The position numbers and the translations under genes were made by a program. From Sabellastarte sp. h YS-2021 (taxonomy: Eukaryota; Annelida; Polychaeta; Sabellida; Sabellidae), in assembly GCA_964017235.1 (NCBI GenBank), contig OZ024927.1, positions 48,613,293 to 48,677,292 of the forward strand: a stretch of 64,000 nt of DNA, in the 5' to 3' direction. This document shows, one piece after another, positions 1-58,643 of this stretch. Under the pieces are notes generated by a model. That model was not told where the DNA came from and did not search any database. It worked only from the letters and a program-made list of their open reading frames with translations. Position 1 is the stretch's first letter; each line of letters opens with the position of its first letter.

Positions 1-868
1 ATGGGCTGGGAATCTTTTGGTGTGGTCGGATTTGACCTTGGACCCCTCCTTCAAGGTCAAACGAGCATAGCCAAACTTAAAAGTGCTCATAACTTGCTTA
101 TTATTTGTCGTACAGGTTTGGGATGGCAAACCAACTTAAGGAAATCATGGACCGGGAATCTTTTTATGTGGTCAGATTTGACCTTGGACCCCCTCCTTCA
201 AGGTCAAACGAGGGTAGCCAAACTTAAAAGTGCTCATAACTCTCTTATTATTTGTCATACATGTTTGGGATGGTAAACCAACCTATAGGAAATCATGGAC
301 CGGGAATCTTTTTATGTTGTCAGATTTGACCTTGGACCCTCTCCTTCAAGGTCAAATAAAGGATACCCAAACTTAAAAGTGCTTATATCATGCTTATTAT
401 TGGTCCTAGAGGTTTGCAATGTGAAACCAACCTATAGGAAATCATGGGCTGGGAATCTTTTGATGTGATCAGATTTGACCTTGGGCCCTTCCTTCGGGGT
501 CAAACAAGGATAGCAAAATCTAAAGTGCTAATAAATCGTTTTTTCTTGGTCCTAGTGGTTTGTAATGTGAAAGCATCCTATAGGAAATCATGCGTTAGGA
601 ATCTTTAGATGTGATCAAATTTGAGCTTTGGCCCCTCTTTCAAGGTCAAATGAGGCTAGTCAAAATTAAAAGTGCTTATAACTCGCTTATTTGTCTTCCT
701 AGAGGTTTGCAATGTAACACCAACCTATTGGAAATCATGGGCTGAGAATCTTTTGATGTGTTCAGATTTTACCTTGGGCTCCTCTTTCAAGGTTAAGTGA
801 TGGTTGATTGGCGAGTTTTCTTTCTGATGGATACAATTTGCATCGGTTCTCCAATGCGCTAGGTCTAG
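1..868 (+). mobile_element. A-family HINE, 3' part (5' end outside window)
   Basis: Positions 1 to about 790 hold five to six diverging copies of a 147-bp minisatellite (S147), whose hallmarks are GGTCCTAGAGGTTTG, GGAAATCATGGGCTGGGAA and TTTGACCTTG...CAAGGTCAAA. The array runs into a 3' terminus: a degenerate subterminal ATGGATACA (inverse of the family's TGTATCC 5' end), a hairpin at 840-857 (GCATCGG-TTCT-CCAATGC, one mismatch), then CTAG at 865-868 followed by TT. The same terminus is intact at 30058-30102. Open reading frames in the array are repeat translations, not genes. Confidence 0.75.
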
Positions 869-1014
869 TTACATTTGTATCTTTCATTAAGCAAACATTT
901 TGTTTACTTAGTGTCCGTACAAGTTGCTCCCAAAAACACTTAGGCCCCCTCCCTACAGCTGTATATTTGTGTCAACCATAATACTCTGTATGTCACACTT
1001 CAACCATGTCCTGT

Positions 1015-1048
1015 CCGGGGATACACTGCGTCGAGACGCAATCTCTAG
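1015..1048 (+). mobile_element. D-family HINE 3' terminus
   Basis: CCGGGGATACA (1015-1025) is the inverse of the D-family 5' end TGTATCCCCGG seen at 1447. It is followed by a perfect hairpin TGCGTC-GA-GACGCA (1027-1040) and CTAG (1045-1048) before TT. Sequence 869-1014 shows no recognisable repeat. This may be the end of an older element into which the A element at 1-868 inserted; its own 5' end is not in the window. Confidence 0.65.
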
Positions 1049-1446
1049 TTAATATATTGTAGCTGATCAGTGTACATATAATATAAATTCCCAATTTTAG
1101 GCACATTAAAAAAATCCCACATGTGGATATGACGTTTCCTTTTTGGGAAAAAAAGCTTTAATTAGTTCAGCTTTTGTTTAGCAGCAGGAGTTGTTGATCT
1201 AGTTACTTATTCACATACACTATGTAAATTGGTCAAATGTATAGACTCGACTTCTTTCAGAAGATAAGATAACTGGAAAAAAAAAATGCTTTCTCATAAA
1301 CAGTTGTTTTATCTTAAGCATATTTATCTTATGAAAATGTTAAATAGGAATGAATTTTCAGAGGCATAAAATGCCTCAAAGATATACAACATATGAATAT
1401 CCCTATCTATAGCCAATTATAGTGTACTGTGGTGTATCTTTATTAT
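1049..1446. other. Unassigned AT-rich sequence
   Basis: About 400 bases between two transposon ends. I see no coding potential, no tandem structure and no terminal repeats. Confidence 0.5.
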
Positions 1447-1847
1447 TGTATCCCCGGCGCAAAGTGGGGATATTATGGATTCATCATCATTGTCGCCCGC
1501 GTCCGCAGAGATTTCTTGTTAGCGACCTATAGTTCACATTTCTTTCCAGATTTCTTTCATATTTGGCAGGTGGCTTGGTATGCTAGAGGACTCGCCACCC
1601 TATCTTTTTGTAGGGTTTATGTCTAAATTAGGCCTGTGGTAGACAAAAATGTCTAAAATCACCTACTCAAAATGAGTAAATGCGAATTGAAAGTATTGCA
1701 GATAGCCAATTTTTCTCAAATAACTCATTCACCTACTTTTGGAAGAGCTTTCACATGGTGAAGTTTCAGACCCATAGCTAATTACTCACCTACTCAAAAT
1801 GAGTAAATGCAAATTATCTCTAAAAGTATTGCAGATAGCCAATTTTT
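1447..1847 (+). mobile_element. D-family HINE D1, 5' end and start of satellite
   Basis: Starts after TT at 1446-1447 with GTATCCCCGG, and a palindrome (TATCCCCGGCGCAAAGTGGGGATA) covers 1449-1472. A GC-rich CGCCCGCGTCCGC leader follows, then the family-specific body with TTCTTTCATATTTGGCAGG and TAAATTAGGCCTGTGG. From about 1660 it becomes the 133-bp satellite S133. The D 5' body recurs at 13318. The array is interrupted by elements I and R1, and I could not assign its 3' end with confidence. Confidence 0.7.
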
Positions 1848-3933
1848 ATCTCCCGCCGGCCGGGTGGGAGATTATAAAACGCATTCCGTGCGTGTGTGCG
1901 TGTGTTCGTGTGTTATTGAGTGTGTGTCACGCTTTTATAAAGGGCTGTACATCACACTGGTTGTTTCTCCTTGGCCTTTTCAATGTTTTTTATGACCTTA
2001 TTGCTTATGTCCTTTCATTTGATGCTGTTATTTCACACCTAGGACCATAGCTAAGTGAGTAATAGCAATGGTGGCTACTTTGAGTAAAGTGCTCATAACT
2101 CCAAAACGACTGCATTTAGAGTGTTTCTGTAAAATACGTTGTTCAGCTACTTTCTCCATGCCTACAAGATGGTACCATTTTTAGGGTTCTATCTTCATAG
2201 CTAAGTGAGTAATAGCTATTTTCTGTTATTAACAATGAGCAAAATGAGTAAATTGATTTTGTCTTTGTAACTGTTACTTACAATATTGGCCTGAAATATG
2301 TTGTTCGACAACTCCTTCATGTACTATATCATGGTGAGGTGTCCAAGGTGTAGCACCATAGCTAACTGAGTAATAGCTATACTAAGTTTAACATTTGACC
2401 ATTGAGCAAGTCACTTATAACTCAAAAGCTATTGAATATAGAGGATTTTTGTCGAATATGTTGTTCACCTATCTTTTGGATATACTGTATTGTGATTTTC
2501 ATAGCTGTAACTCCATAGCCAACTGAGTAATAGCTACTTTGATGATAACCATAATGAGTAAATGGCTTATATCTTCAAAAGTATTGCAGCTACACAATTT
2601 TGTTCCAATATGTTGTTCAGCTACTATCTCCACAGCTACAACATGGTCACTAGTTTGGAAGTGTATCTCCATAGCTAAGTGAGTAATAGCTACTTTGTCA
2701 ATTTTTAATGATAACCATAATGAGTAAATGCGTTATATCTTCAAAAGTATTGCAGCTACACAATTTCTCTCAAATAAGTTGTTCATCTACTTTTTAAGTC
2801 ATTCATCTACTTTTGGGAGAGCTTTCACATGGTGAAGTTTCAGACTCGTAGCTAATTACTCACCTACTGAAAATGAGTAAATGCGAATTATCTCTAAAAG
2901 TATTGCAGATAGCCAATTTTTCTCAAATAACTCATTCACCTACTTTTGGGAGAGCTTTCACTTGGTGAAGTTTCAGACCCATAGCTAATTACTCACCTAC
3001 TGAAAATGAGTAAATGTGAATTATCGCTAAAAGTATTGCAGATAGCCAATTTTTCTCAAATAACTCATTCACCTACTTTTGGGAGAGCTTTCACTTGGTG
3101 AAGTTTCACACCCATAGCTAATTACTCACCTACTCAAAATGAGTAAATGTGAATTATCGCTAAAAGTATTGCAGATAGCCAATTTTTCTCAAATAACTCG
3201 TTCACCTACTTTTGGAAGAGCTTTCACATGGTGATGTTTCAGACCCATAGCTAATTACTCACCTACTGAAAATGAGTAAATGCGAATTATCTCTAAAAGT
3301 ATTGCAGATGGCCAATTTTTCTCAAATAACTCATTCACCTACTTTTGGGAGAACTTTCACTTGGTGAAGTTTCACATCCATAGCTAATTACTCACCTACT
3401 CAAAATGAGTAAATGCGAATTATCTCTAAAAGTATTGCAGATGGCCAATTTTTCTCAAATAACTCATTCACCTACTTTTGGGAGAACTTTCACTTGGTGA
3501 AGTCTCACATCCATAGCTAATTACTCACCTACTCAAAATGAGTAAATGCGAATTATCGCTAAAAGTATTGCAGATAGCCAATTTTTCTCAAATAACTCAT
3601 TCACCTACTTTTGGGAGAGCTTTCACTTGGTGAAGTTTCACACCCATAGCTAATTACTCACCTACTCAAAATGAGTAAATGCGAATTATCGCTAAAAGTA
3701 TTGCAGATAGCCAATTTTTCTCAAATAACTCATTCACCTACTTTTGGGAGAGCTTTCACTTGGTGAAGTTTCAGACCGATAACTAATTACTCACCTACTC
3801 AAAATGAGTAAATGCGAATTATCTCTAAAAGTATTGCAGATAGCCAATTTTTCTCAAGGAGTTTTGTCAAATATGTTGTTCACCTACTTTTTGATGTAGT
3901 GCGGCGGGAGATCATACCACGGCAGTGGTCTTG
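1848..3933 (+). mobile_element. I-family HINE, complete, inserted in S133
   Basis: The 5' end ATCTCCCGCCGG opens a palindrome at 1848-1872, followed by a GT-rich stretch. The body is S155- and S133-type satellite. At the 3' end GGCGGGAGAT (3903-3912) is the exact inverse of the 5' terminus, then a hairpin ACCAC-GGCA-GTGGT (3916-3929) directly abuts CTTG (3930-3933). Removing the element joins CCAATTTT to TCTCAA, the sequence of an uninterrupted S133 unit, so the insertion site is a TT. Boundaries should be right to within a base or two. Confidence 0.85.
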
Positions 3934-4213
3934 TTCTCAATAACTTATTCACCTTACTTTTGGGAAAGCTTTCACTTGAAGTTTCACACCCATAGCTAAT
4001 TATTCACCTACTCAAAATGAGTAAATGTGAATTATCTCTAAAAGTATTGCAGATAGCCAATTTTTCTCAAATAACTCATTCATCTACTTTTGGGAGAGCT
4101 TTCACTTGGTGAAGTTTTAGACCCATAGCTAATTATTCACCTACTCAAAATGAGTAAATGCGAATTATTTCTAAAAGTATTGCAGATAGCCAGTATTTCT
4201 CAAATAACTCATT
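3934..4213 (+). repeat. S133 satellite between elements I and R1
   Basis: About two units of the 133-bp satellite (hallmarks CTACTCAAAATGAGTAAATG, GTATTGCAGATAGCCAA, GAGAGCTTTCAC). It is the continuation of the array that elements I and R1 interrupt. Each unit carries a perfect small inverted repeat TACTCA-AAA-TGAGTA. Confidence 0.85.
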
Positions 4214-4629
4214 AAGCGTCCCGCAAGGGACGCTTGTTTGTGTATGGGAGAGCTTCAGGCTCCGCCGGCTCCGGCGGCTCCGCCGGCTCCGCCGGCTCCG
4301 CATTTTGTTTTCCTTATAACTCTGTAACCGTTAGGCGGATTCTTTTCAAATTTGGCAGGTTTAGGCAGTAGCCTTGGGGAATTTTTTTGAATATGCTGCA
4401 GTGACATTTCAACCAATCAGAGAGGTCACATGACCAAAAATGTCTTTTTTCGATGGGGAAGCTTGTCCGGATGATAACTTGAAAGGAATTTTATCAATTC
4501 ACCTGAAACTTGGCAAATACATTCATTCTATTAAAATCTGGAAATCATTAGATTTTGGCATTGATTGGTCAAGAAATGGCCGAGTAATTAATGATTAATT
4601 AATCATTACGAATTTTCCAAATAAGGAAA

Positions 4630-6070
4630 ACACAAAAATGTTTATATCTCGAAAACCGTGCTAGATAGAGCGATTTCGGCGAAATTTTTGACCCACAGGG
4701 TATCTCTGCAGAGTAGTTTTCCCAATTTTCAAAAAATTTTTGTCTCGCCCAAAATGGCGGCCATTTTGAATTTTCGAAATTTTCGCAAAAATTGCAAAAG
4801 ACAAAAATGCTTATATCTCAAAAACCGTGCTAGATAGAGCAATTTCGACAAAATTTTTGACCCGCAGGATATCTCTGCGGAGTACTTTTCCCAATTTTCA
4901 AAAAATTTTGGTCTCGCCAAAAATGGCGGCCATTTTGAATTTTCGAAATTTTCGCAAAAATTGCAAAACACAAAAATGCTTATATCTCGAAAACCCTGCT
5001 AGATAGAGCGATTTCGACGAAATTTTTGACCCAAAGGGTATCTCTGCAGAGTAGTTATCCCAATTTTGAAAAAAATTTTGTCTCGCCAAAAATGGCGGCC
5101 ATTTTGAATTTTCGAATTTTTCGCAAAAATTGCAAAACACAAAAATGCTTATATCTCGAAAACCGTGCTAGATAGAGTGATTTCGACGAAATTTTTGACC
5201 CACAGGGTATCTCTGCAGAGTAGCCATGCCAATTTTGAAAAAAATTTTGTCTCGCCAAAAATGGCGGCCATTTTGAATTTTCGAATTTTTCGCAAAAATT
5301 GCAAAACATAAAAATGCTTATATCTCGAAAACCGTGCTAGATAGAGCGATTTCGACGAAATTTTTGACCCACAGGGTATCTCTGCAGAGTAGCCATGCCA
5401 ATTTTCAAAAAAATTTTGTCTCGCCAAAAATGGCGGCCATTTTGAATTTTCGAATTTTTCGCAAAATTGCAAAACACAAAAATGCTTATATCTCGAAAAC
5501 CGTGCTAGATAGAGCGATTTCGACGAAATTTTTGACCCAAAGGGTATCTCTGCAGAGTAGTTATCCCAATTTTGAAAAAAATTTTGTCTCGCCAAAAATG
5601 GCGGCCATTTTGAATTTTCGAATTTTTCGCAAAAATTGCAAAACACAAAAAATGCTTATATCTCGAAAACCGTGCTAGATAGAGCGATTTCGACGAAATT
5701 TTTGACCCAAAGGGTATCTCTGCAGAGTACCCATGCCAATTTTGAAAAAAATTTTGTCTCGCCAAAAATGGCGGCCATTTTGAATTTTCGAATTTTTCGC
5801 AAAAATTGCAAAACATAAAAATGCTTATATCTCGAAAACCGTGCTAGATAGAGCGATTTCGACGAAATTTTTGACCCACAGGGTATCTCTGCAGAGTAGC
5901 CATGCCAATTTTCAAAAAAATTTTGTCTTGCCAAAAATGGCGGCCATTTTGAATTTTCGAATTTTTGCGCAAAAATTGCAAAACACAAAAATGCTAATAT
6001 TTGGAAAACCATGCTACATAGAGCGATTTCCACGAAATTTTTTATCTTCAGGGTATCTCTGCAGAGCAGC
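4630..6070 (+). repeat. S169 satellite array in R1
   Basis: Eight to nine units of 168-169 bp, for example CTTATATCTCGAAAACCGTG starting near 4978, 5147, 5316 and 5484. Each unit contains GATAGAGCGATTTCGACG, GGGTATCTCTGCAGAGTA and the near-palindrome AAAATGGC-G-GCCATTTT. Because 169 is not a multiple of three, reading frames rotate from unit to unit; the predicted peptides here are artefacts. Confidence 0.9.
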
Positions 6071-7800
6071 TATCCCAAAGAGCTTTCACTTGGTGAAGTT
6101 TCAGACCCATAGCTAATTACTCACCTACTGAAAATGAGTAAATGCGAATTATCTCTAAAAGTATTGCAGATAGCCAATTTTTCTCAAATAACTCATTCAC
6201 CTACTTTTGGGAGAGCTTTCACTCTGTGAAGTTTCAGACCCATAGCTAATTACTCACCTACTCAAAATGAGTAAATGCGAATTATCTCTAAAAGTATTGC
6301 AGATAGCCAATTTTTGTCAAATTAATCATTCACCTACTTTTGGGAGAGCTTTCACTTGGTGAAGTTTCAGACCCATAGCTAATTACTCACCTACTCAAAA
6401 TGAGTAAATGCGAATTATCTCTAAAAGTATTGCAGATAGCCAATTTTTCTCAAATAACTCATTCACCTACTTTTGGGAGAGCTTTCACTTGGTGAAGTTT
6501 CAGACCCATAGCTAATTACTCACCTACTCAAAATGAGTAAATGCGAATTATCTCTAAAAGTATTGCAGATAGCCAATTTTTCTCAAATTAATCATTCACC
6601 TACTTTTGGGAGAGCTTTCACTCTGTGAAGTTTCAGACCCATAGCTAATTACTCACCTACTCAAAATGAGTAAATGCGAATTATCTCTAAAAGTATTGCA
6701 GATAGCCAATTTTTCTCAAATAACTCATTCACCTACTTTTGTGAGAGCTTTCACTTGGTGAAGTTTCAGACCCATAGCTAATTACTCACCTACTCAAAAT
6801 GAGTAAATGCGAATTATCTCTAAAAGTATTGCAGATAGCCAATTTTTCTCAAATTAATCATTCACCTACTTTTGGGAGAGCTTTCACTTGGTGAAGTTTC
6901 AGACCCATAGCTAATTACTCACCTACTCAAAATGAGTAAATGCGAATTATCTCTAAAAGTATTGCAGATAGCCAATTTTTCTCAAATTAATCATTCACCT
7001 ACTTTTGGGAGAGCTTTCACTTGGTGAAGTTTCAGACCCATAGCTAATTACTCACCTACTCAAAATGAGTAAATGCGAATTATCTCTAAAAGTATTGCAG
7101 ATAGCCAATTTTTCTCAAATAACTCATTCACCTACTTTTGGGAGAGCTTTCACTCTGTGAAGTTTCAGACCCATAGCTAATTACTCACCTACTCAAAATG
7201 AGTAAATGCGAATTATCTCTAAAAGTATTGCAGATAGCCAATTTTTCTCAAATAACTCATTCACCTACTTTTGGGAGAGTTTTCACTCTGTGAAGTTTCA
7301 GACCCATAGCTAATTACTCACCTACTCAAAATGAGTAAATGCGAATTATCTCTAAAAGTATTGCAGATAGCCAATTTTTCTCAAATAACTCATTCACCTA
7401 CTTTTGGGAGAGCTTTCACTTGTTGAAGTTTCAGACCCATAGCTAATTACTCACCTACTGAAAATGAGTAAATGTGAATTATCTCTAAAAGTATTGCAGA
7501 TAGCCAATTTTTCTCAAATAACTCATTCACCTACTTTTGGGAGAGCTTTCACTTGGTGAAGTTTCAGACCCATAGCTAATTACTCACCTACTCAAAATGA
7601 GTAAATGCGAATTATCTCTAAAAGTATTGCAGATACCCAATTTTTCTCAAATAACTCATTCACCTACTTTTGGGAGAGCTTTCACTTGAAGTTTCAGACC
7701 CATAGCTAATTACTCACCTACTCAAAATGAGTAAATGTGAATTATCTCTTAATAGTATTGCAGATAGCCAATTTTTCTCAAATAACTCATTCACCTACTT
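6071..7800 (+). repeat. S133 satellite array in R1
   Basis: About 13 units with a 133-bp period (GAGAGCTTTC at 6211, 6344, 6477 and so on). Units are very similar and differ at recurring positions, such as TCTGTGAAG versus TTGGTGAAG and ATTAATCATT versus ATAACTCATT. These variants alternate, which points to amplification of multi-unit blocks. Confidence 0.9.
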
Positions 7801-8320
7801 TTGGCAGAGCTTTCACACACGAAAATGAAAAATTGTGAATATCTCGGAAAAGCTATTTCTTTTGCTTTAATGCTCGGCGGGAGATACATACCGCGGCAGT
7901 GGTTTTGACAAAAATTTTTGTCTCCCCAAAAATGGTGGCCATTTTGAATTTTCAAAGTTTTTGCAAAACACAAAAATGCTTATATCTTGAGAACCATGCT
8001 ATATGGAGCGAACTCAACAAAATTTTAGACCTGCTGGGTATCTCTGCAGAGTAGCCATGCCAATTTTCAAAATATTTTTGTCTCGCCAAATATAGCGGAC
8101 ATTTTTAATTTTTTTATTTTTTGCAAAACACAAAAATGCTTATATCTTGAAAACCGTGCTAGATAGAGCAGACTGCGCTTACTTTGGTTGCCACAACAGT
8201 ATAAGGCTAGAAACGAAGCATTTTCTTAATACTTTAGCACTCACCTTTATATCCTTTTCGGGACGCTTTGTTTTTGCTATGCAAAAACATTATCTTTTTT
8301 TTTTGCGAGCGATCCTCTAG

Positions 8321-9867
8321 TTCACCTACATTTTGGAGAGCTTTCAATTTGTGAATTTTCAGATCCGTAGCTAATTACTCACCTACTCAAAATGAGTAAA
8401 TGCCTATTATCACTAAAAGTAAAATGCAGATAGCCAGTATTTCTCAAATAACTCATTCACCTACATTTTGGAGAGCTTTTACATGCTAAAGTTTTTTTAT
8501 GAATTTTTAAAATAATTTTTAATGCATTAAAATTAATGAAATCATGCACTAAATCAATTGTAACTTGAAAAGTATTGCATTTAGAGCACTTTGTTAAAAA
8601 ATATTATTCAGCTACTTTTTCCATATCTACAACATGGTGAGTTGAGTAACTTGGTTGTCTATCTCAATAGCTAAGTGAGTAATAGCTACTTTTGGATTTT
8701 TCACTAACTTCCATCATGAGTAAAATCACTTGTAACTTGAAAACTATTGCATTTAGAGAATTTTGTGCAAATATGTTATTGATCTTCTTTTGGGGCAGCT
8801 ATAACATAATAAAATTTCAGACCTGTAGCTCATCCCATAACTGAGTAATAGCTACTTTTAAGTTATCACTGTTGAGTAAATCACTTATAACTTGAAAACT
8901 GTTGCATTTAGATTATTTAGTTTCAATATGTTATTCACCTATTTTGAGGCAGCTATAACATTGTAAAATTCCAGACCTGAGGCTCATTGCATAGCTGAGT
9001 AATAGCTACTTTAAGGTTCTTACTCAACACTAAATCATTTATAACTTGAAAAGTATTGCATTTAGAGCATTTTGTTAAAATATGTTATTCAGCTACTTTT
9101 TCCATAGCTACAACATGGTGAGTAACTTGGGTGTCTATCTCAATAGCTAAGTGAGTAATGGCTACTTTTGGACTTTTCACTAACGTCCATCATGAGTAAA
9201 ATTACTTGTAACTTGAAAACTATTGCATGTAGAGAATTTTGTGCAAATATGTTATTGATCTACTTTTGCGTCAGCTATAACATAATAAAATTTCAGACCT
9301 GTAGCTCATGGCATAACTGAGTAATAGCTACTTTTAGGTTATCACTGTTGAGTAAATCACTTTATAACTTGAAAACTGGTTGCATTTAGATTATTTAGTT
9401 TCAATATGTTATTCACCTATTTTGAGGCAGGTATAACATTGTAAAATTCTAGACCTGTGGCTCATTGCATAGCTGAGTAATAGCTACTTTGAGGTTCTTA
9501 CTCAACACTAAATCATTTATAACTTGAAAAGTATGGCATTTAGAGCATTTTGTTAAAATATGTTATTCAGCTACTTTTTCCATAGCTACAACATGGTGAG
9601 TAACTTGGGTGTCTGTCTCAATAGCTAAGTGAGTAATGGTTACTTTTGGACTTTTCACTAATTTCCATCATGGGTAAAATCACTTGTAACTTGAAAACTA
9701 TTGCATTTTGAGAATTTTGTGCAAATATGTTGTTCACCTACTTTTGGGTCAGCTATAACATAGTAAAATTTCAGACCTGTAGCTCGTGGCATAGCTGAGT
9801 AATAGCTACTTTTGCCTTTGCCGGTGGATACATCTTGCATCTGGCCACAGATGCATCCTTGGTCTAG
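8321..9867 (+). repeat. S133 then S155 arrays ending in an A-type HINE 3' terminus
   Basis: The S133 array continues to about 8480, then changes to the 155-bp satellite S155 (hallmarks GAGTAAATCACTTATAACTTG, CTATTGCATTTAGAG, CAGCTATAACATAGT, CATAGCTGAGTAATAGCTAC). It ends with CCGGTGGATACA (9821-9832), a perfect hairpin GCATCTG-GCCA-CAGATGC (9837-9854) and CTAG (9864-9867) before TT. S133 and S155 align along most of their length and appear to be diverged forms of one satellite. Confidence 0.8.
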
Positions 9868-13155: not shown

Positions 13156-13317
13156 TATAAGCATTAAATGCATCAATGTTGAATGCTGATATAAACGTTA
13201 AATGTATCAATATTGAATGCTCACTTTTTTCAAATATACTGTGCCAATAGTACTTGAAAATGTATTTCTGTGTTAAACTGTTTCTAGTAGATGTTTATTC
13301 AGCATTATTTTTTCATT

Positions 13318-14176: not shown

Positions 14177-14221
14177 ATATCCCCAGACGAAAGTCGGGGA
14201 TATATTGGATTCAGGTCCGTC

Positions 14222-14273
<52 letters not shown>

Positions 14274-20895: not shown

Positions 20896-20904
20896 GGAGA
20901 CAAA

Positions 20905-44399: not shown

Positions 44400-44546
<147 letters not shown>

Positions 44547-45723: not shown

Positions 45724-46539
45724 TTGAATCTGTATTAACGTAATACCCATTTCAAACCACAGGCAGTGTAACCCGCTGTTACATGCGTCTGCCTGCTGTC
45801 CGTATACTTGTGATACAGTGGCCCGCCGTCCCAATCCTTCAATGTTCTAAGGAAGTTTTAAAATGTTTAACATTTCCACCTCAGAATGTCACAATGTCAG
45901 GTACAATCAGTCACCGTCCCTTGTCCGCCCTACCACCATCCTTATATCCATGTCTGTCAGTCCATTTCAGTGACCCTCCGCAGATAAATTTTTCATATGG
46001 TAACCAAAGGTGTGGTCTGTGGTTTATATAAGGTTGTGACTCATTCTCTTTTCGGTAGCACGTGTTTATTCAATGGCTGAAGAAGGTTAGTTAAGGTTAA
46101 CACAGGTTAGCTCTTGCTGACCAACATTCGTACCAGTGTTGTTCCACTGTTATTGACAGTTACACGCCGTGTCTCATCACTGACCATGCACATGATACCT
46201 TATGGATACATCAAATCTCGGAAGATATGAGGCAGTTCCGCTGCCTTGTAAAACTTGTAACAGCGGATTATACCTGATACCGCCTGTAGTGTGAATGGGG
46301 CAGAAGTAATCAAGCAGTTTTAATTCCATGCTTCACTATAAGTACATTAAAATTCTGTGAATAAGTGTTCATAGCGAAAACAAGATATTGTGCCAATATT
46401 TGCAGTGCATTCCAATCTATTGATTGGACAAAATGTATGGTTTACATCATTGGCACCTTTCTTAAATATAAACACTGCAGTACAATAAATGTCAATAATA
46501 TGTTTCTTGATGCACCTTCTTCCAATGGTACTATCTTTA
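45724..46539 (+). other. LARS1 intron 2, unassigned part
   Basis: No repeat or gene recognised. An 82-codon open frame (45783-46031) has no recognisable domain. Confidence 0.5.
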
Positions 46540-46800
46540 AAGGCTGTGGGGTATTGTTTTTACTCATGGTGTCTGGGTTGTCAGGAAACATTTTGTCTGG
46601 GCTGTATCTCAGAAACCATGAAGAAGTTGTAGTGCACTGCTTTTAAGATTTTTTCGGATTTAACTCTGTCAGGCTTCCACAGCCTAAACCAATGCATAGA
46701 TTTTCACCAAACTATCAGGACATGTTTAATTTAGAGGATCTACAGCTGATTAAGTTTTGGGGGACTGCCTGGTTGCCATGGCAATGGTTTATTTTGGGGG
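46540..46800 (+). mobile_element. Degraded G-type HINE fragment
   Basis: CTGTGGGGTATTG, TTACTCATGGTGTCTGG and TTTGTCTGGGCTGTATCTCAGAAACC match the start of G at 53500-53600. The rest (to about 46800) is diverged satellite-like sequence. No ends are left. Confidence 0.55.
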
Positions 46801-46820
46801 GTCTTAAAGTTTGTCATAGA

Positions 46821-47921: not shown

Positions 47922-48103
47922 TGTATCCACTGGAGGCATCCGGTGGATACTTTGGTTTAGCGTTTGCAACGCCGCCGCCACCACACGTAGTAGTGGGTGG
48001 ACAATTAGACGTGTGCTCGATTAATCGTCGGTGACAGCGTAAAATCGCGGTCGGTGATTAACGTTTTCTAATGATCGAATATTCAGCTTAAATCTTACCT
48101 TTC

Positions 48104-48285
48104 CTGATTTATCTCAATATCCACATATTTTCCATATATTTTACAATTTTTTACTTAATAAATTAACAGATTTGTCATGCATTTCGAGTTTGTTTAAGTG
48201 GGTGCTTTCAGTAGATTCTAAATGTCGGAACACCGTTATTCTTACCGGATTGACCTATACTTTATCCCGGAAAGTGTTTCTTAAA
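48104..48285 (+). mobile_element. Fragment related to the MITE at 10706
   Basis: Parallels about 10780-10965: ATATCCACATATTTT, TTTTACTTAATAAATT, TTCTAAATGTCG, TACCGGATTGACCTATACTT and CCGGAAAGTGTTTC. Neither terminal repeat is present. Confidence 0.65.
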
Positions 48286-48287
48286 TA

Positions 48288-49093
48288 CAGTAGAACCTCG
48301 ATTATCCGAACCCCATGGGAGACATACAATCCGGCCGGATAATCGAGGGGTTCGGATAGATGAAGGAAACCGAAATTCACCGTCTATGGGTTACCGAGTG
48401 GGCGATAATTGAAGAAATGTCGTTTTTATGCAATAAACATAGACGTTGGTGGTCGTTAATAAAATACTTTAATATATTTGTGACATATAATATAAGTGAC
48501 CCTTTAATTGTCGTTTCTTTGCTCCATATCCATGAATGTTGTTATTTTTATTTAAAATATTCCTCGGACGTGAGCTGGATGTGTTCGGTTGGTACTTGCA
48601 TTGTTTACGCTTTAATTTTAGATTACATCGTCCCGCATTTTGTCAAATGAAAAACTCCGGGAGATTATTTATTGTAAAATCCAAAGCAAACACGCCTTCA
48701 ATGATACGTGTGTTTGATTGGTAATGCATTGTTGACGTCTTTTCTTTTCTACACGTTGTCAGACTGTGAACCTACTCCGGGAGATTATAAATTGCAAAAC
48801 CCAATCGAACACACTTTCATTGATTGGCGCATGATCAAAGAAGTTGTGTAGCGGGGTAGTGTAATTGAATTAATCCCTCCCCTATTGTAACAATGGTGAT
48901 AAAGATCAAAGAAGTTAGGTGTCTCTGTGAATGGTACGTTTTATAAAGCACTGGAATTCAGCGTTTCCGAGACTGTGTAAAATCTTGCATTATCGCTCAC
49001 GCTTGACCGGTTTTAAATGTAGGGAGACATGATTTTGGTTCGGTTAATCCGGAGATCCGGATAATAGAAGGCCGGATAATCGAGGTTCTACTG
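48288..49093 (+). mobile_element. pogo/Tigger-type MITE (806 bp)
   Basis: Terminal inverted repeats CAGTAGAACCTCGATTATCC and its inverse at 49074-49093 are flanked by TA on both sides (48286-48287 and 49094-49095). The CAGTAGAACCTCG start is typical of pogo/Tigger elements of the Tc1/mariner superfamily. The 96-codon frame inside (48360-48650) does not resemble a transposase. It abuts the MITE fragment on its left. Confidence 0.85.
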
Positions 49094-50397
49094 TACTAAT
49101 CAACAATGGAGTAAAATACTCGATTATGAGTTGATCATCGGTCGGAAAGATAGACGAATAATCGACCATGAAAATTGGAGGCGATTCCCAACACTTGCAT
49201 GTAGAGAGATTTTTGGTATTAACGCTCTAAGGGGAAAACTACACCAGTTAGGTTCACCAAATTTGCAGGATATCTTCATTGGGGGACAAGTTTCTCTGGG
49301 ACTGAAAATAGCTTCATTCTGAAAAACAAGTTGGCCGCCACGGGCATTTCTTTGAAAATAATCTACATTTTTCTACTGGCTGAAGGTTGAATCTCTTCAT
49401 AGGTGATATGTATAACAGATATACATATCCTCTACAGCCTTGCACACATTTAACCTTGAAGCTCGTAATTCAAGGTCATCCACGGAGTGCCAAAGTAACC
49501 CACATAGCGGACTTTAACGGTGCCTATATCTCCCTTATTATGGGGTCCTAGAGGTTTGCCATGTGAAACCAACCTATAGGAAATCATGTGCTGCGAATCT
49601 TCAGATATGGTCAGATTTGGCTCGCTTATTATTGGTCCTAGAGGTTTGGGATAGTAAACCAACCAATAGGAAATCATGGACTGGGAATTTTTAGGTGTGG
49701 TCGGATTTGACCTTAGACCCTTCGTTCAAGCTCAAACGAGGATAGCCAAAGTTAAAAGTGCTTATAACTTGCTTATTATTGGTCCTAGAAGTTTGGGATA
49801 GTAAACCAACATATAGGAAATCATTGGCTGGGGGAATCTTCTGGTGTGGTCGGATTTGACCTTGGGCTCCTTCAAGGTCAAACGAGGATAGCCAAAGTTA
49901 AAAGTGCTTATAACTCGCTTATTATTGGTCGTAGAGGTTATGGATGGTAAGCCAACCCATAGGAAATCATGAGCTGGGAATCTTTTGGTCTGGTTGGATT
50001 TGACCGTGGACCCCTTGTTCAAGGTAAAACGAGGATAGCCAAACTTAAAAGTGCTTATAACTTGCTTATTAATGGTCCTAGAAGTTTGGGTTGATAAACC
50101 AACCTATAGGAAATCATGGGCTGGGAATCTTGTGGTGTTGTCGGATTTGACCTTGGGCCCCTCCTTCAAGGTCAAACAGGGATTGCCAAAGTTAAAAGTG
50201 CTTATAACTCGCTTATTATTGGTCGTAGAGGTTTGGGATGATAAACCAACCTATAGGAAATCATGGACTGGGAATCTTTTGGTTTGGTCAGATTTGACCT
50301 TGGGCCCTTCGTTCAAGGTCAAACGAGGATAGCCAAACTTAAAAGTGCTTATAACTTGCTTGTTATTGGTCGTAGAGGTTTGGGATGATAAACCAAC

Positions 50398-50890: not shown

Positions 50891-53068
50891 ATGTCCACCC
50901 CACTGGGGGGTGGACATATTATTTTTGCTTTTTCTGCCGTCCGGCGTCCCACTTGGTTTCCAGACATTTGAGGCAACAGTTCTTATCCTATCTTTACCAA
51001 ATTTGGCATGCAGGTTTATTGGGTTAATAGCTTGTATGGGATTGCTTTTGGTGATGATAGCTCTATAGCTAACTGAGTAATAGCTACTTTGCTACTTTTG
51101 AGTAGCTCTTTGGTTTCCAGACATTTTAAGGAATGCTATTAAGCCTAGCTTTGTGAAATTTGGTATGGAGGTTCATTGGGTTAATAGCTTGTATGGGATT
51201 TCTTTTGGGGGGAATTGCTTCATAGATGAGTGAGTAATTAATTAAATAAATGAGTAATTAGCTATTTTGAATACTGAAAAAGGCAAATGTGCTCATATCT
51301 CCTAAACCGTGCGAGATAGAGCGATTTCGTCGAAATTTTCGACCCACAGGGTATCTAAGGAATGTACTCTTTGCAATTTTCAAAACATTTTCCCCTCCCC
51401 AAAAATGGCGGCCATTTTGAATTTTCGAATTTTTGCCAAAAATGGCAAAACACAAATTTGCTTCTATCTCCTTAACCGTGCGAGATATAGCGATTTCGTG
51501 AAAATTTTCAACCCGCAGGGTATCTAAGGAGTGTACTCTGCGCAATTTTCGAAAAAATTTCCCCTCCCCAAAAATGGCGGCCATTTTGAATTTTCGAATT
51601 TTTGCCGAAAATGGCAAAACACAAATTTCCTTCTATCTCCTTAACTGTGCGAGATAGAGCGATTTCGTCGAAATTTTCAACCCACAAGGTATCTAAGGAG
51701 TGTACTCTTTGCAATTTTCAAAACATTTTCCCCTCCCCAAAAATGGCGGCCATTTTGAATTTTTGCCAAAAAATGGCAAAACACAAATTTGCTTCTATCT
51801 CCTTAACCGTGCGAGATAGAGCGATTTCGTCGAAATTTTCGACCCACAGGGTATCTAAGGAATGCAATCTTTGCAATTTTCCAAAAATTTTTCCCTCCCC
51901 AAAAATGGCGGCCATTTGGAATTTTCGAATTTTTGCCAAAAATGCAAAACACAAATTTGCTTCTATCTCCTTAACCGTGCGAGATAGAGCGATTTCGTCA
52001 AAATTTTCGACCCACAGGGTATCTCAGCATTGTACTCTTGGTAATTTTCCAAAAATTTTCCCCTCCTCAAAAATGGCGGCCATTTTGAATTTTCGAATTT
52101 TTGCCAAAAATGGCAAAACAATAATTTGCTTCTATCTCCTTAACCGTGCGAGATAGAGCGATTTCGTCAAAATTTTCGACCCACAGGGTATCTCAGCATT
52201 GTACTCTTGGTAATTTTCCAAAAATTTTCCCCTCCCCAAAAATGGCGGCCATTTTGAATTTTCGAATTTTTGCCAAAAATGGCAAAACAATAATTTGCTT
52301 CTATCTCCTTAACCGTGCGAGATAGAGCGATTTCGGCAAAATTTTCGACCTGCAGGGTATCTGAGAATTCTACTCTTGCCAATTTTTAAAAAGTTTACCC
52401 CTCCCCAAAAATGGCGGCCATTTTGAATTTTACAATTTTTCCCAAAAATGGCAAAACACAAATTTGCTTCTATCTCCTTAACTGTGTGAGATAGAGCGAT
52501 TTCGTCGAAATTTTCAACCCACAGGGTATCTAAGGAGTGTACTCTTTGCAATTTTCAAAAAATTTTCCCCTCCCCACATATGGCGGCCATTTTGAATTTT
52601 CGAATTTTTGCCCAAAATGGAAAAACACAAAGTGGCCTTAACCGTGCAAAATAGAGTTATTTCGTTGAAATTTTCGACCCATAGGGTATCTAAGAAATGT
52701 ACTCTTGGCAATTTTCAAAAAAAATTTCCTTTTCTGAAAAATGGCGGCCATTTTGAATTTTCAAATTTTTGCCAAAAATAGAAAAACAGGAATTTGCTTC
52801 TATCTTCTTAACCGTGCAAGATAGAGTGATTTCGTCAAAATTTTCTACCCAACCAATGCAAAAAGGCATGAACCTGAAATAATTTACATCTACACTAATA
52901 AATATTTAAGCATCATTGATATATTTTACAAATGAAACAGGGTCTTGTAAGACTACTGTACAATTTGGGCAAGGTTCATGGGGTGGACATTACACATGAT
53001 AATGTGTGTTCTTCTATGCTATCCTGTTTCTATTCGCATCTACTATCAACAGGGCGTCCTATTTCTAG
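50891..53068 (+). mobile_element. F-family HINE, complete (2.2 kb)
   Basis: The 5' end ATGTCCACCCC opens a palindrome (TATGTCCACCCC-ACTG-GGGGGTGGACATA, one offset), then CCGTCCGGCGTCCC and TACCAAATTTGGCATGCAGG. A nine-unit S169-related array fills 51290-52845. The 3' side has GGGGTGGACAT (52980-52990), inverse of the start, a perfect hairpin ACACAT-GATA-ATGTGT (52992-53007) and CTAG (53065-53068), an unusually long 57 bases later. E-type sequence begins exactly after CTAG, supporting that end; the left flank is not E-type. Confidence 0.75.
51290..52845 (+). repeat. S169-related satellite array in F
   Basis: Nine units of about 160-170 bp: CTTCTATCTCCTTAACCGTG at 51461 and 51630, for example. 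They align with S169 of the R elements (GAGATAGAGCGATTTCG, CCCACAGGGTATCT, AAAATGGCGGCCATTTTG), with consistent family differences such as CCTCCCC for TCTCGCC. The open frames in all phases are artefacts. Confidence 0.9.
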
Positions 53069-53499: not shown

Positions 53500-55967
53500 A
53501 CCCCACAGTCCTTAAGGGCTGTTTTCACCCATGGTGTCCGGATGGGCGGGCGGGCGGGCTGCGGGAAAAAGTTTGTCCGGGCTGTATCTCAGAAACCGTA
53601 AGGTGTAGGAAGTTGATACTTGGTAGGGACATTGGTTAGGAGGTGTAGGTGTGCAACGTCATGGTCTGACCTTGATTTGACCTTTGACCTTGCCGTAGTG
53701 ACCTTGAGTTTGAAAATCTTGTCCGGGCTATATCTTGGAAACCGTAAGGTGTAGGAAGTTGATACTTGGTAGGGGCATTGGTTAGGGGGTGTAGTTGTGC
53801 AACGTCATGGTCTGACCTTGATTTGACCTTGCCACAGTGACCTTGACCTATAAAATCTTGTCCGGGCTATATCTCGGAAACTGTAAGGTGTAGGAAGTTG
53901 ATACTTGGTAGGGATATTGGTTAGGGGATGTAGGTGTGCAGTGTCATGGTCTGACCTTAATTTGACCTTTGACCTTGCCGCAGTGACCTTGACCTATGAA
54001 ATCTTGTCCGGGCTATATCTCGGAAACCGTAAGGTGTAGGAAGTTGATATGTGGTAGGGACATTGGTTAGGGGGTGTAGGTGTGCAACGTCATGGTCTGA
54101 CCTTGATTTGACCTTTGACCTTGCCGTAGTGACCTTGACCTATAAAATCTTGTCTGGGCTATCTCAGAAACCATAAGGTGTAGGAAGTTGGTATTTGGTA
54201 GAGACATTTGCTAGAGGGTGTAGGTATACACCGTCATGGTGTGACCTTGATTTGACCTTGCCGCAGTGATCTTGACCTATAAAATCTTGTACGGGCTATA
54301 TCTCGGAAACCGTAAGGTGTAGGAAGTTGATACTTGGTCGGGACATTTGTTAGGGAGTGTAGGTGTGCAACGTCATGGTGTGACCTTGATTTGACCTTTG
54401 ACCTTGTTAAAATGGTATACTTGATATTAATTGCCCCTCTACTGAATGGTGGTGTAATTCAAATACCAGCAACTGTTTCCAAAACCATACAGGTTAGATT
54501 ACCCTTTATTCAAACTTCCTCCAGACAGACAAAAAAGTCTGGAAATTAAATCTATTCAAAGAAAAAAAAATCCTGTTAACTCTCCCCCCTCAAAAAAAAA
54601 ATTAAATAAATAAAAATTGTAATTACGTAACTTTTAATCAAGGAGTAATAGGCCTGAAATTCAATACAGTGTGTGAAATTTGTAAACTACAGGAAAATGC
54701 CCCCTTAAAACACCAGGCACACTACAGACAGTGAATCCCACAGTTATAGGTATTGGGCGAATTGCCTCTGTCCTTTAAGTGCTGTCCAAGGTTTGTATGC
54801 AAACTTGTAGGTTTAAAAAAGTAGCCAACAGATATTTCAATCAGTGTAAAAACTAGGGTTTTTTACCCCATAGCCCTTATGCGCCGTCAGAGTATTGTTT
54901 TTACCCATGGTGTCCGGATGGGCATTCGGGCAGTCAGGCATCCGTGCAGGTGGGCAGTGGGAAAAAGTTTGTCTGGGCTGTATCTCAGAAACCGTAAGGT
55001 GTAGGAAGTTGATACTTGGTAGGGACATTGATTAAGGGGTGTTGGTGTGCAACGTCATGGTGTGACCTTGATTTGACCTTTGACCTTGCTATAGTGACCT
55101 TGAGTTTGAAAATTTTGTCTGGGCTATATCTTGGCAACTGTAAGGTGTAGGGACATTAGTTAGGGGTTGTATGTGTGCGACATCATGGTGTGACCGTGAT
55201 TTGACCTTACCATAGTGACCTTGACCTATAAAATCTTGCCCGGGCTATATCTTGGAAACTGTAAGGTGTAAGAAGTTGATACTTGAAAGGACATTGGTTA
55301 GGCAGTGTAGGTGTACAACGTCATGGTATGACCTTGATTTAACCTTTGACCTTGCCAAAGTGACCTTGACCTATAAAATCTTGCCTGGGCTATATCTCCG
55401 CAACTGTAAGATGTAGGAAGTTGATACATGACGGACATTGGTTAGAGGCAGTAGGTGTGCAACATCATGGTGTGACCTCGATTTGACCTTTGACCTTTTC
55501 ATAGTTACCATGAGTTTTAAAATTTTGTCTGGGTTATTTCTTGATTCCATAAGGTGTAGAAGGTTGATACTTGGTAGGGACATTGGTTAATTGGGAGTGT
55601 AGGTGTGCATCATGGTGTGACCTTTAACTTTGGCTCTGCCAAAGTGTGTTCACCTGCCATATTTGAGACATCTTTTTCTTCTGACAAAGATGATATATGG
55701 ATTGCTGTATTATTTACAGCTTCATAAATTTTAGTTTACTGATTAATGCTGTCATATTGCTATTGAATGGTCTTGTTTAATACTTTTATCTTTGTATACA
55801 TCTTCTTTCTCTTTGATGTTATTTTCTCTACTTAAATATTATTTTAAGCTTTATATAACTGACACTGCTCTGAAAGCATCCAGATCTGTGTACCTTTTCA
55901 CTACTATCTCATGGTGTTGAAAACTATTTCCCCAGGCTGTGGGGTACGGGCATCTCTGATGCTATTT
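53500..55967 (+). mobile_element. G-family HINE inserted in E3 (2.5 kb)
   Basis: The 5' end TACCCCACAG runs into a palindrome CAGTCC-TTAA-GGGCTG and a GGGCGG-rich stretch. Two blocks of a 139-146 bp satellite (S146) follow, separated by an unassigned 54410-54864 and a second G-like start at 54865. The 3' end has CTGTGGGGTA (55937-55946), exact inverse of the first bases, and hairpin GCATC-TCT-GATGC (55950-55962) running into CTAT. E1 shows the uninterrupted site TTTTATTCAACTTG; three extra T at the right make the last base uncertain. Confidence 0.8.
53575..55640 (+). repeat. S146 satellite blocks in G
   Basis: Six units at 53575-54410 and about five at 54960-55640. A unit contains GTCCGGGCTATATCTCGGAA, ACCGTAAGGTGTAGGAAGTT, GATACTTGGTAGGGACATTGG and a run of TGACCT half-sites including TGACCTTTGACCTTG. 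A second element start (ACCCCATAGCCC, 54865) separates the blocks, so a second G copy is nested here without its own 3' end. Confidence 0.85.
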
Positions 55968-56012: not shown

Positions 56013-56400
56013 ATCCATGAAGAATGCCCATCAGGAACAATGCCCATCAGGTACTATGCCCATCAGAGCAATGCCCATCAGGAACTTTGCCCATCAGTAT
56101 CAGGATTGTATTAACAGGCCATCAAAGAACTTGGGGTGACTTATAATAGATATAGTTCACACACAGGCCTTAGAAGTGTACTCAGGATTATAGAATTTCC
56201 AAGGGTGATAACAAGATTCCTAATTGCACTTCATACATACATAACTAAGTTTAATCAAAAGGGGTTACATCAAAGGATTTAGGGTGACTTGTAATAAATT
56301 TAGTTCACACACAGTCTGGCCTTAGAAATGTACTCAGGACCATTGAATTGTCATGCAAGATTACAGAAAAATGCAATATGTAGGATTATTGCCATTCTAG
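56013..56400. repeat. MULE-type phrase block and tandem pair
   Basis: ATGCCCATCAGGAAC or a close variant occurs five times in 56023-56097. Two copies of a roughly 150-bp unit follow (GGGTGACTTRTAATA, TAGTTCACACACAG, GTACTCAGGA). Layout matches 19066-19560 and precedes a MULE fragment. Confidence 0.5.
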
Positions 56401-56454
56401 TAAAAATTACACTTGTAGATAATTTACAAAACAAAAATTTAAAAAAAATTCAAA

Positions 56455-56693
56455 CACATGTTGGGCCATAGTCATCCATCAGTTTGGGTTGCAATAGAGG
56501 CAATAAAGAAGGATCAAGCTCTAGTCGCCACAGCCCTACTTCAGGAAGCCCAGGGCCAGCTACAACCCAAAAGAACTAGGCTAGCCTCAATTCAGCTACA
56601 AAAGAAGTTGAAGCAATGTGCACAGACTATCAACATGGGGTTAAGACAATGAACAAATTTTTGCAATCAGTTGGAAACACTATAAAGCTCTGA
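56455..56693 (+). pseudogene. MULE transposase C-terminal fragment
   Basis: GHSHPSVWVAIEAIKKDQAL through KLQ-like helices matches 12087-12260 of the first MULE (GHDNPSIWVAIEAIQKDQAL). After a frameshift the ending FLQSVGNTIKL-stop (56657-56693) corresponds to FLESVGHTIRYI-stop. The FLYWCH and catalytic parts are absent. Confidence 0.8.
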
Positions 56694-56895
56694 TGTCATT
56701 TGTATTTACTATTTTTAGTGCTATCACTATCAATGTCATATGTATTTTGTGATGTGTTATCTTGATGTATGTATACTTCATCAATGTCAATAAAATGTCA
56801 ATAAAACCTATATAGAAACCATTAGTTTCACCAAGTTTAGATATTGATAATGCACCCAGGCCACCTGGTAGACTTTCCTTACCTAAAAAATTATT

Positions 56896-58643
56896 ATATC
56901 CCCAGACGAAAGTCGGGGATATATTGGATTCAGGTCCGTCGCGCCGCCGCCGTAGAAATTTCCTTGTGGACGCGATAACTCAAAAACAAATTAATATTTT
57001 TTTTTCAAACTTGGTACACATGTTAAGGGTGCCCAAAGGAAGATCCCTATTTTAAGGTGACCTTAAACTCCCAGTAAAAAAGAACTTATGGCCACCTTAA
57101 GGTCAGAAATTGGACTTTTGGCCACTTAGAGCCCTGTAGGTCACAAACTATGATGCTCAGCTGGCTGAAATTTTACCTGACAACACATTAATATGTTCTT
57201 AGTACATGTGCCGAAAATCACGACTTTAAGTTGAGGAGAAAATTGTGTTTGAGGCCCATAAATACCCCCACTTAGGGATTTTTTGCTATACTTTTCACAT
57301 ATTTTGCCCTATAATTTGGAAGTGGTAATTCTGATGAGTCTCAAACTGTGCTAGGTATAACTTTGATATGTAATCCTTGTCTGTAGAAAATTTTAGGGCT
57401 GTAGGTTTACCCAAAGGGGTCGACTTAAGGTCTCAAAAGTGCCAACAGAGACCCAATTTATGCACTTTTTGCCACTTTCAAGCACTGTAGCTTTCAAACT
57501 ATGTCTCTCATCTAAGTTAAATATCATCTGGGAATATATCTATGTGTTTTCTTATATGTGCCCCAACATTTAGGCCTTTAATAGACAGTTAACCTGTGTA
57601 TCAGGACCATAAACACCCACCCGAGTGACCCTTATAAGACATTTTTCACATCTTTTTCCCTGTAACTTGGAAATGGTAAGTCTGAGAAGTTTCAAACTGT
57701 ATTAGATATATATTCTGTGTGTAATCTTAGTATGTAACAGATTTTAAGTCTGAAGCTTTAATTTTGAAGGTCAAATTGAGGTCTCTAAAAGGCTCCCAAA
57801 GACCCAATATTTGGACTTATTGCTACTTTTAAGCCCTGTGACTGTCAAACTATGTGACTGATAGAGCTCAAATCCTATCTGGGAAGATATTAGTATGTTA
57901 TTTATATATGTGCCAAAAATTAAGGCTTTAAGAAGACATTTAACCTGTGTATGAGGACCATAAATCCCCACCCGAGTGACCATTTTTAGACATTTTTCAC
58001 ATATTTTTCCCTGTAACTTGGAAATGGTAAGTCTAAGAAGTTTCAAACTGTATTAGATGCATATTCTATGTGTAATCTTAGTATGTGACAAATTTTAAGT
58101 CTGAAGCTTTAATATTGAAGGCCACATTTAGGTCTCTAGAAGGCCCCATAAAGACCCAGTATTTGGACTTTTTGCCAATTTTAAGGCCTGTGACTGTTAA
58201 ACTATGTGACTGATAGAGCTGAAATCTCATCTGGGAATACATTATTATGTTCTTTTTACATGTGCCAAAAATCAAGGCTTCAAGTAGACATTTAACCTGT
58301 GTATGAGGACCTTAAACACCCACCTGAGTGACCCTTTTAAGACATTTTTCACATATTTTGCTCTGTAACTTGGAAATGGTAAGTCTGAGAAGTTTCAAAC
58401 TTTATTAGATATATATTCTATGTGTAATCTTAGTATGTAACAAATTTTAAGTCTGAATCTTTAATTTGAAAGCCACATCGAGATCTCTAAAAGGCCCACA
58501 GAGACCCAATATTTGGACTTTTTGCCACCTTTAAGCCCTGTGACTGTTAAACTATGTGATTGATGGAGCTGAAATCCCATCTGGGAATGCATTATTATGT
58601 CCTTTTTACATATGCCGAAAATCAAGGTTTTTAGTAGACATTT
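56896..58643 (+). mobile_element. E-family HINE E2, interrupted by DIRS
   Basis: From ATATCCCCAGACGAAAG it follows E1 (14177-15938) with few substitutions. Differences are three GCC triplets instead of about 16, and about 40 bases after CACATCGA (58476-58518) that E1 lacks at 15798. It stops at GTAGACATTT, where E1 continues ACCTGTG. The rest of E2 would lie beyond the DIRS element. Confidence 0.92.

Follow-up and report, generated by a model that had tools for sequence, protein, structure and literature searches.

Canonical Helitrons (Helitron1) are marked by a 5' TC, a 3' CTRR and insertion between A and T (PMC4067079). Helentrons, in the cases treated in the cited part of PMC4067079, have subterminal inverted repeats (subTIRs) in common with their own non-autonomous derivatives, the HINEs. 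The elements described here are new members of this already described kind, for which precedents are reported in oyster, mite and fly (PMC7492417, PMC4067079).

The window, i.e., the whole stretch of DNA that was analysed (64 kb), consists in large part of about nine families of small rolling-circle elements, inserted into or beside one another. These families are very probably non-autonomous Helentron derivatives. An assignment to canonical Helitrons was rejected: the 5' ends of the families are not TC and the target is TT; CTAG alone fits CTRR.

A typical element begins with the 10–12 nt subTIR of its own family, which in most families folds back onto a complementary inverted repeat. Usually a GC-rich microsatellite follows, and then one or two satellite-like arrays; the distal part consists of the inverted subTIR, a hairpin and mostly CTAG or CTTG. 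Downstream of 15 5' ends, the GC content averages 0.55 (range 0.39–0.87; 0.36 in the window). The parts observed in the window are the following.

824..868, + strand: 3' end of A0 (subTIR, hairpin, CTAG; by eye), following a 147-bp array at 1–793; no 5' end was seen in the window, and it presumably lies beyond the edge
1014..1048, + strand: J'-type 3' end (subTIR, hairpin, CTAG, then TT)
1447..9867, + strand: J1 element, 5' end TGTATCCCCGG, 133- and 155-like arrays, hosting I1 and R1
1848..3933, + strand: I1 element, subTIR ATCTCCCGCC, 133-bp array, within a 133-bp unit; empty site 7586–7703
4214..8320, + strand: R1 element, subTIR AAGCGTCCCG, within a 133-bp unit; empty site 2877–2994
6079..7907, + strand: I element, 5'-truncated, comprising a 133-bp array and an I-type 3' end, inside the 169-bp repeats of R1
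13317..19053, + strand: J2 element, hosting E1
14177..17405, + strand: E1 element, subTIR ATATCCCCAGAC, CGC microsatellite, ~350-bp array, within a 155-bp unit; empty site 33090–33207
21767..21799, + strand: C0, a C-type 3' end (CTGA, then TT) behind a 155-bp array at 21293–21751; no 5' end recognised in the window
24242..30102, + strand: A2 element, subTIR TGTATCCACCGG, 147-bp array, other DNA, CTAG end
30847..39280, + strand: C1 element, subTIR TGTCAGCTGACT, 155- and 147-bp arrays, with R2 nested
34179..38594, + strand: R2 element, within a 147-bp unit; empty site 25037–25155
40375..44363, + strand: R3 element
44600..45723, + strand: H1 element, subTIR AACGCTCGAC, TCTG microsatellite, 187-bp array; folds not significant
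46533..46553, + strand: decayed G-type 5' end, inverted repeat CTGTGGGGTA kept, subTIR mutated (by eye against 53499)
47922..50397, + strand: A5, an A-element 5' end with a 147-bp array behind; 3' end not found in the window
50891..53068, + strand: F1 element, subTIR ATGTCCACCCC, 169-like array, CTAG end; directly behind the CTAG, homology to 16055 onward sets in; left flank unmatched
53500..55967, + strand: G1 element, subTIR TACCCCACAG from 53499, GGGC microsatellite, 146-bp array; uninterrupted site 16419–16522
56896..58643, + strand: E2, an E element of which the 5' part is present, ~350-bp array; its E homology extends to 58643, followed by retroelement-bearing DNA

The A/J-type 3' end at 9821–9867 presumably belongs to J1. 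The assignment of the 3' end at 19008–19053 is ambiguous: it could be that of J2 or of a decayed A copy starting at 17958. A chimeric reading of J1 and J2, with the 5' end from J and the 3' end from A, was considered first and later dropped: no nested A 5' end is in view for J1's ending, so the simpler assumption is a J family whose 3' subTIR is slightly mismatched. A match at 46544 was likewise rejected as a 3' end, being by eye the inverted-repeat half of the decayed G 5' end. The eight families listed in the preliminary description were all recovered, but the list was incomplete, lacking J as the ninth (1447 and 13317).

The eight 5' words quoted in that description are present exactly in the window, and each recurs elsewhere on the same strand as its reverse complement (8/8). 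Its placing of TT was confirmed as well: TT lies at the 5' ends or 1–2 nt from them, and most 3' hairpins are followed by CTAG or CTTG and then by TT. The pairing of the ends is family specific: the 5' 13-mer of a family gives 10–12 against its own 3' subTIR and at most 7 against those of other families (eight families, one each). The eight families compared have no terminal sequence in common. Their subTIRs, family specific and 10–12 bp long, agree with the approximately 11–15 bp by which HINEs are recognised.

A strict scan accepted a 5' word only if TT preceded it, if inverted copies of it occurred both locally and at a distance, and if a hairpin and CTNN-TT were present. It returned seven places on the + strand (families A, C, F, I and R) and one on the – strand, against a mean of 0.13 and a maximum of 1 in 60 block-Markov sequences. 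Omission of the local 5' inverted copy gave 51 places on + and 11 on –, close to chance (Markov mean 28.6, maximum 41), and this variant was dropped as evidence because of its noise. Owing to its weakness, G and H are assigned by exact pairing and position rather than by a chance test. The direct-copy control of the strict scan (10 places on +, 33 on –) is uninformative, since tandem arrays swamp the counts. A looser de novo scan served for finding candidates (A copies and J), not for counting; it gave 33 local inverted-repeat places on + and 24 on – (8–23 in six Markov sequences), among which repeats internal to the 147-bp unit are numerous, as well as 66 pairs on + and 24 on – (Markov 31–49).

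Twenty stretches were folded as DNA, each against 200 shuffles. None of the 200 shuffles folds as well as the 5' end in families A, C, E, F, I and R (z –3.2 to –7.2); for G, H and J, 14, 12 and 9 shuffles, respectively, are equally good, and these 5' ends are unremarkable. The earlier claim that most 5' ends fold on themselves thus holds for six of the nine families; the feature had been called unusual, but a palindromic subTIR or a complementary 5' inverted repeat is already published (PMC4067079, PMC7492417). Among eleven 3' stretches, the hairpins of A (two), C (two), G and R stand out, with 0–3 of 200 shuffles equal, and those of H (69), J' (34), E (21), I (14) and F (13 of 200) are not above shuffles at 0.05.

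The borders of ten elements were examined by a search for empty sites within the window. Four were found (I1, R1, R2 and E1), in each of which the best join shares exactly TT, in support of the proposed ends and target. G1 provides a fifth fit once its 3' end is moved by eye from the CTTG at 55976, proposed before, to about 55967, inside a T run. The end of F also had to be corrected: it is probably the CTAG at 53068, 89 nt past the start of the 3' subTIR, since homology to another copy begins there. For the other five elements (A2, C1, R3, H1 and F1) no empty site was found in the window, and their borders are therefore putative. Insertion at TT without further target duplication is thus seen in four of the ten elements, and in G1 after border correction. 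That the elements are ordinary MITEs or TIR-bearing cut-and-paste transposons is highly improbable: both ends do carry inverted repeats, and elements of the HINE kind were once annotated as MITEs (PMC4067079), but here the 3' copy is situated about 30–90 nt internal to the end with a hairpin after it, and the four directly found empty sites have no duplication past the shared TT. The HINE assignment is borne out by the anatomy and by the TT-sharing empty sites, the same parts being described in PMC4067079 and PMC7492417. The HINE set as such is expected biology; it is demonstrated here via natural empty sites within a single 64-kb window.

Transposition of these HINEs could proceed as follows. 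A Rep/helicase encoded elsewhere would nick the 5' end of the element and peel one strand off. Peeling would stop at the matching 3' subTIR and hairpin, the latter acting as a putative terminator, and the freed strand, a presumed single-stranded intermediate, would be joined into a TT site. HINEs also enter each other's arrays, and arrays are thereby stacked within new carriers.

Nesting itself is directly observed. In R1, a 169-bp array is followed by a 133-bp array, an I-type 3' end and the R 3' end. R1, R2 and R3 each hold a nested 5'-truncated I element, with the same junctions in R2 (35687) and R3 (41207). The three R copies suggest that a two-array HINE arises when another HINE inserts and is carried along, and so point to a route by which a HINE gains a second satellite array.

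No Rep/helicase domain was found in 23 distinct stretches (25 Pfam query entries) of the 57 stop-to-stop stretches of at least 90 aa. A single type of Helentron had been proposed as the partner. Judging from the termini, several partner lineages may be just as likely as one, since the families have no common termini and the subTIRs of published Helentrons recur in the HINEs belonging to them (PMC4067079). The window also contains an RT-bearing retroelement (~58.6–64 kb, + strand), whose ORF protein search gave 3546 relatives among 8000 candidates scored, and FLYWCH/MULE fragments (10.5–11.9 kb, + strand). The 169-bp unit had no match in the viral contigs scanned, and Rfam and tRNA searches of the window gave no match.

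The preliminary description had missed the common orientation of the families. All 14 recognised 5' ends lie on the + strand, as do all 3' ends found, the query ends themselves being derived from + finds. Self-matches in the window number 2074 in plus against 5 in minus orientation, a count dominated by matches within and between arrays. The share of TT on the + strand is 0.53, and it is at most 0.58 for six longer or shorter T motifs counted; a strand bias this small cannot explain the orientation.

Chance or nesting is a real, if minor, possibility: asymmetric targets in oriented arrays would make nested copies follow their hosts, and six of the 14 5' ends lie inside or against other HINE sequence (I1, R1, E1, R2, F1 and G1). 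However, the eight 5' ends not seen nested also agree (two-sided 2 × 0.5^8 = 0.008), and the eight families compared have no common ends.

A rather unlikely explanation is that the elements enter the one strand that is exposed at a moving replication fork or in a transcription bubble, as in bacterial IS200/IS605, so that orientation would record the direction of the fork or transcript. The uniform ends, the excess of plus self-matches and the small TT bias are consistent with it; moreover, the lack of target modification has been interpreted as a sign of a single-strand intermediate (PMC4067079), and IS608 and ISDra2 offer a precedent (PMC5371812). Against this, the pattern was noticed after the fact in one window, array matches dominate the self-match count and only eight of the 14 ends were not seen nested. 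In addition, the queries were taken from + finds, so that a single-copy family confined to – could have been recognised by the de novo scans alone. Oyster Cg_HINEs integrate both ways (PMC7492417), with which local coherence is compatible. It is quite unlikely that insertion of Helentron-type elements is strand specific, with single-stranded DNA on one arm of the fork, or on the displaced strand of a replicating HINE, as the target; unrelated neighbours would then be co-oriented over tens of kilobases. If true, the orientation of HINEs in animal genomes could serve as a fossil trace of the direction of replication or transcription.

It is decidedly doubtful that selection retained only one orientation, on the model of a flamenco-type unistrand piRNA cluster. 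Such clusters exist in Drosophila (PMC10643416), and the retroelement and the FLYWCH/MULE fragments also lie on +, but another repeat pair (12759–12986 and 20778–20898) occurs in opposite orientations. The co-orientation of about nine unrelated families suggests a connection, directly open to testing, between rolling-circle transposition in eukaryotes and the direction of replication or transcription. In our literature search, orientation coherence was described for bacterial elements (the cited part of PMC5371812) but not for Helitrons or Helentrons; the principal papers on the distribution of plant Helitrons lay outside this search, and an earlier report is possible.

Among known systems, FoHeli/Helitron2 of Fusarium resembles these elements in its asymmetric terminal inverted repeats, its terminal hairpins and the composite elements proposed to arise by self-insertion, but it encodes its own transposase (PMC5148889). 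FoHeli1/2 also differ in ending in ATTTT and inserting between TNAT and T, and the model proposed for FoHeli (PMC5148889) stops at the first 3' terminus encountered; the R copies in the window, by contrast, continue beyond an internal I-type 3' end.

HINE-Mo of the mite and DINE-1 of Drosophila have in common with them the subTIRs, a palindromic or inverted repeat-bearing 5' end, two or more T flanking either side and no target modification in the cited account (PMC4067079); their 3' palindrome has a clear counterpart in A, C, G and R. The mite subTIRs are 12–15 bp long and lie 2–4 nt from the 5' terminus, whereas in the window the subTIR begins at TT or directly beside it; unlike HINE-Mo and DINE-1, the present elements are dominated by long satellite-like arrays (PMC4067079).

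The Cg_HINEs of Crassostrea gigas (PMC7492417) are alike in anatomy, the feature on which the comparison is based. Their subTIRs are 11–12 bp long (10–12 nt here), with a complementary inverted repeat of 7–12 bp located 1–12 bp away, and a 5' inverted repeat is likewise present in most families here. Both sets carry a microsatellite and repeat arrays (mostly 140–180 bp in the oyster, some elements with two arrays), and a 3' subTIR with a palindrome (here clear in A, C, G and R), and both use a TT target with no duplication found, for the oyster in the cited part of the source. The number of families, previously regarded as unusual, has a counterpart in the eleven distinct, densely interspersed Cg_HINE elements (PMC7492417). 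Cg_HINEs are reported in both orientations, whereas the copies recognised here are all on +; and the oyster double arrays are ascribed to recombination or junction fragments, whereas one here appears to be derived from a nested insertion (PMC7492417).

The GC content is about 36% over the first 58 kb of the window, which has a eukaryotic look, and tandem arrays abound, their unit lengths being about 133, 146, 147, 155, 169, 187 and 350 bp. All eight termini quoted in the preliminary description (families A, C, E, F, G, H, I and R; J was added here as a ninth) occur in the window, and all eight also recur inverted on the same strand. The layout described for them holds as well: TT lies at the 5' ends or 1–2 nt away, and at most 3' ends CTAG or CTTG and then TT come after a hairpin. 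With one 5' 13-mer per family, the 3' inverted copy (subTIR) of the same family scored 10–12 and that of any other family at most 7. The full pattern, including a local inverted copy of the 5' terminus, is found at seven places on the plus strand (A, C, F, I, R) and one on the minus strand; in 60 block-Markov sequences its mean is 0.13 and its maximum 1. Omission of the local 5' inverted copy gives 51 places on the plus and 11 on the minus strand (Markov mean 28.6, maximum 41), which is close to chance, so that the case for G and H depends on their position and on how exactly their ends pair. Arrays swamp the direct-copy control of the scan (10 plus, 33 minus). Family E is not picked up by the full-pattern scan, probably owing to its interrupted hairpin.

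Among nine 5' ends folded as DNA, those of A, C, E, F, I and R fold better than 200 of 200 shuffles, and those of G, H and J are unremarkable (14, 12 and 9 of 200 shuffles equally good). Eleven 3' stretches were folded: two copies each of A and C, together with G and R, are distinct from their shuffles, unlike E, F, H, I and J' (21, 13, 69, 14 and 34 of 200, respectively). In the 62 nt that follow the 5' end, GC averages 0.55 over 15 ends (range 0.39–0.87) versus 0.36 for the window.

Several copies (family letter plus number) are nested:

1447–9867, plus strand: J1, hosting I1 and R1
13317–19053, plus strand: J2, hosting E1
30847–39280, plus strand: C1, hosting R2
Behind the A 5' end A5, plus strand: F1 and G1, the latter within an E-like fragment

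For ten elements the 60-nt flanks were joined and an uninterrupted counterpart was sought elsewhere in the window. I1, R1, R2 and E1 each have one empty site, in array units resembling those entered, and in all four the join sharing exactly two bases (TT) is the best of six possible joins. A related uninterrupted site for G1 lies within E1 (16419–16522); read by eye from it, G1 ends in the T run at ~55967, again sharing TT. At the 3' border of F1, homology of 53069 with 16055 begins immediately past the CTAG ending at 53068; its left flank has no match in the window. No joint-spanning empty site was found within the window for A2, C1, R3, H1 or F1. The shared TT fits either a two-base duplication or two T owned by the element; a similar uncertainty over the distribution of T appears in passages of PMC4067079.

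The shared facing of the elements was not remarked upon in the preliminary description. When termini of both kinds (ten 5', nine 3') were searched for on both strands, all 14 distinct 5' ends lie on the plus strand, as do all 3' ends, the query ends being derived from plus-strand finds, by which a single-copy family present on the minus strand alone would be missed. The three minus-strand matches are 5' palindromes read in reverse, and de novo scans of both strands gave one weak minus-strand place. Self-comparison at E <= 1e-3 yields 2074 plus matches, mostly array-derived and hence not independent, versus five minus matches (two self-palindromes, two from one non-HINE repeat and one of 23 nt); at E <= 1e-10 minus matches are 1 of 1267. 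The TT share on the plus strand is 0.53. Decayed or partial copies at 17958, 46533, 868, 1048 and 21799, found by eye or by one end alone, agree with the plus strand. The non-HINE repeat among the minus matches, 12759–12986 and 20778–20898 (~84% identity over 123 nt), is the sole clear repeat in both orientations and is not a HINE end.

An autonomous Helentron or Helitron2 enzyme would act in trans, nicking the 5' terminus and peeling off a single strand up to the 3' subTIR and hairpin; this strand would then join a TT target. The common orientation would be accounted for if single-stranded target at replication forks were captured in a strand-specific manner; fork-linked insertion has a precedent in IS200/IS605 (sections of PMC5371812). 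Alternatively, the orientation could reflect a unistrand piRNA cluster. Chance plus nesting is the other alternative. The two-sided sign probability of 14/14, observed post hoc and in one window, is ~1e-4, but six of the 14 (I1, R1, E1, R2, F1, G1) are nested in other HINE sequence or abut it; the remaining eight (J1, J2, A2, C1, R3, H1, A5, E2) give 0.008.

All three R copies carry a 5'-truncated I element within their 169-bp repeats, comprising a run of 133-bp units and a recognisable I-type 3' end that has a few substitutions. Its junctions are identical in the three copies, 169-bp sequence borders it left and right, and the target lacks about five bases. Most simply, the insert predates the spread of R, and R copies read through the I-type 3' end inside them and stopped at their own. 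Such read-through fits a mechanism in which the subTIRs must match, or an I end already inactive (TT is missing on its outer side). The R copies (4214–8320, 34179–38594, 40375–44363) are about 93–96% identical, with 8.6, 6.6 and 2.6 copies of the 169-bp and 13.1, 18.1 and 20.1 of the 133-bp unit; arrays seem, judging from them, to gain or lose units faster than bases change. Double arrays are attributed to recombination or junction fragments in parts of PMC7492417, and composite Fusarium Helitrons to self-insertion, as proposed in passages of PMC5148889. An A-type 5' start, ATTGTATCCA, lies at 17958 (J2) and ~33759 (C1), by eye at the identical point of the 155-bp unit, which suggests one common ancestral nested insertion, since decayed or deleted. 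Two diverged R-like 3' ends (22934 and 23614) around 169-like repeats (22913–23720, plus strand) probably mark an old decayed R relative.

No Rep/helicase domain was found by Pfam in 23 distinct stretches, out of 57 with at least 90 aa. A reverse transcriptase/RNase H ORF (60936–63212, plus strand) lies in 58643–64000, DNA beginning where the E2 array stops; its protein search gave 3546 relatives among 8000 scored candidates. Overlapping long ORFs on both sides have no Pfam match, and a DIRS-like element with tyrosine recombinase is a guess by eye. Between J1 and J2 (10456–11897, plus strand), a FLYWCH zinc finger (E 9.7e-13) and a below-cut-off MULE transposase match (E 0.001) make a Mutator-like remnant or a host gene candidates. 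Inside A2, several overlapping plus-strand ORFs of 91–282 aa (25144–28400), with no Pfam match above cut-off, are possibly a captured gene or old transposon.

The oyster Cg_HINE, as described in parts of PMC7492417, has a parts list identical to that of the elements here, and HINE-Mo/DINE-1 resembles the elements here closely (passages of PMC4067079); the likeness extends to the 5' fold, the microsatellite and the arrays. The self-folding 5' ends, considered unusual in the preliminary description, already belong to the published parts list. In the oyster assembly DNA transposons dominate, and Helitrons are the most abundant superfamily among them (excerpts of PMC7992393), so the density of elements here is not strange by itself.
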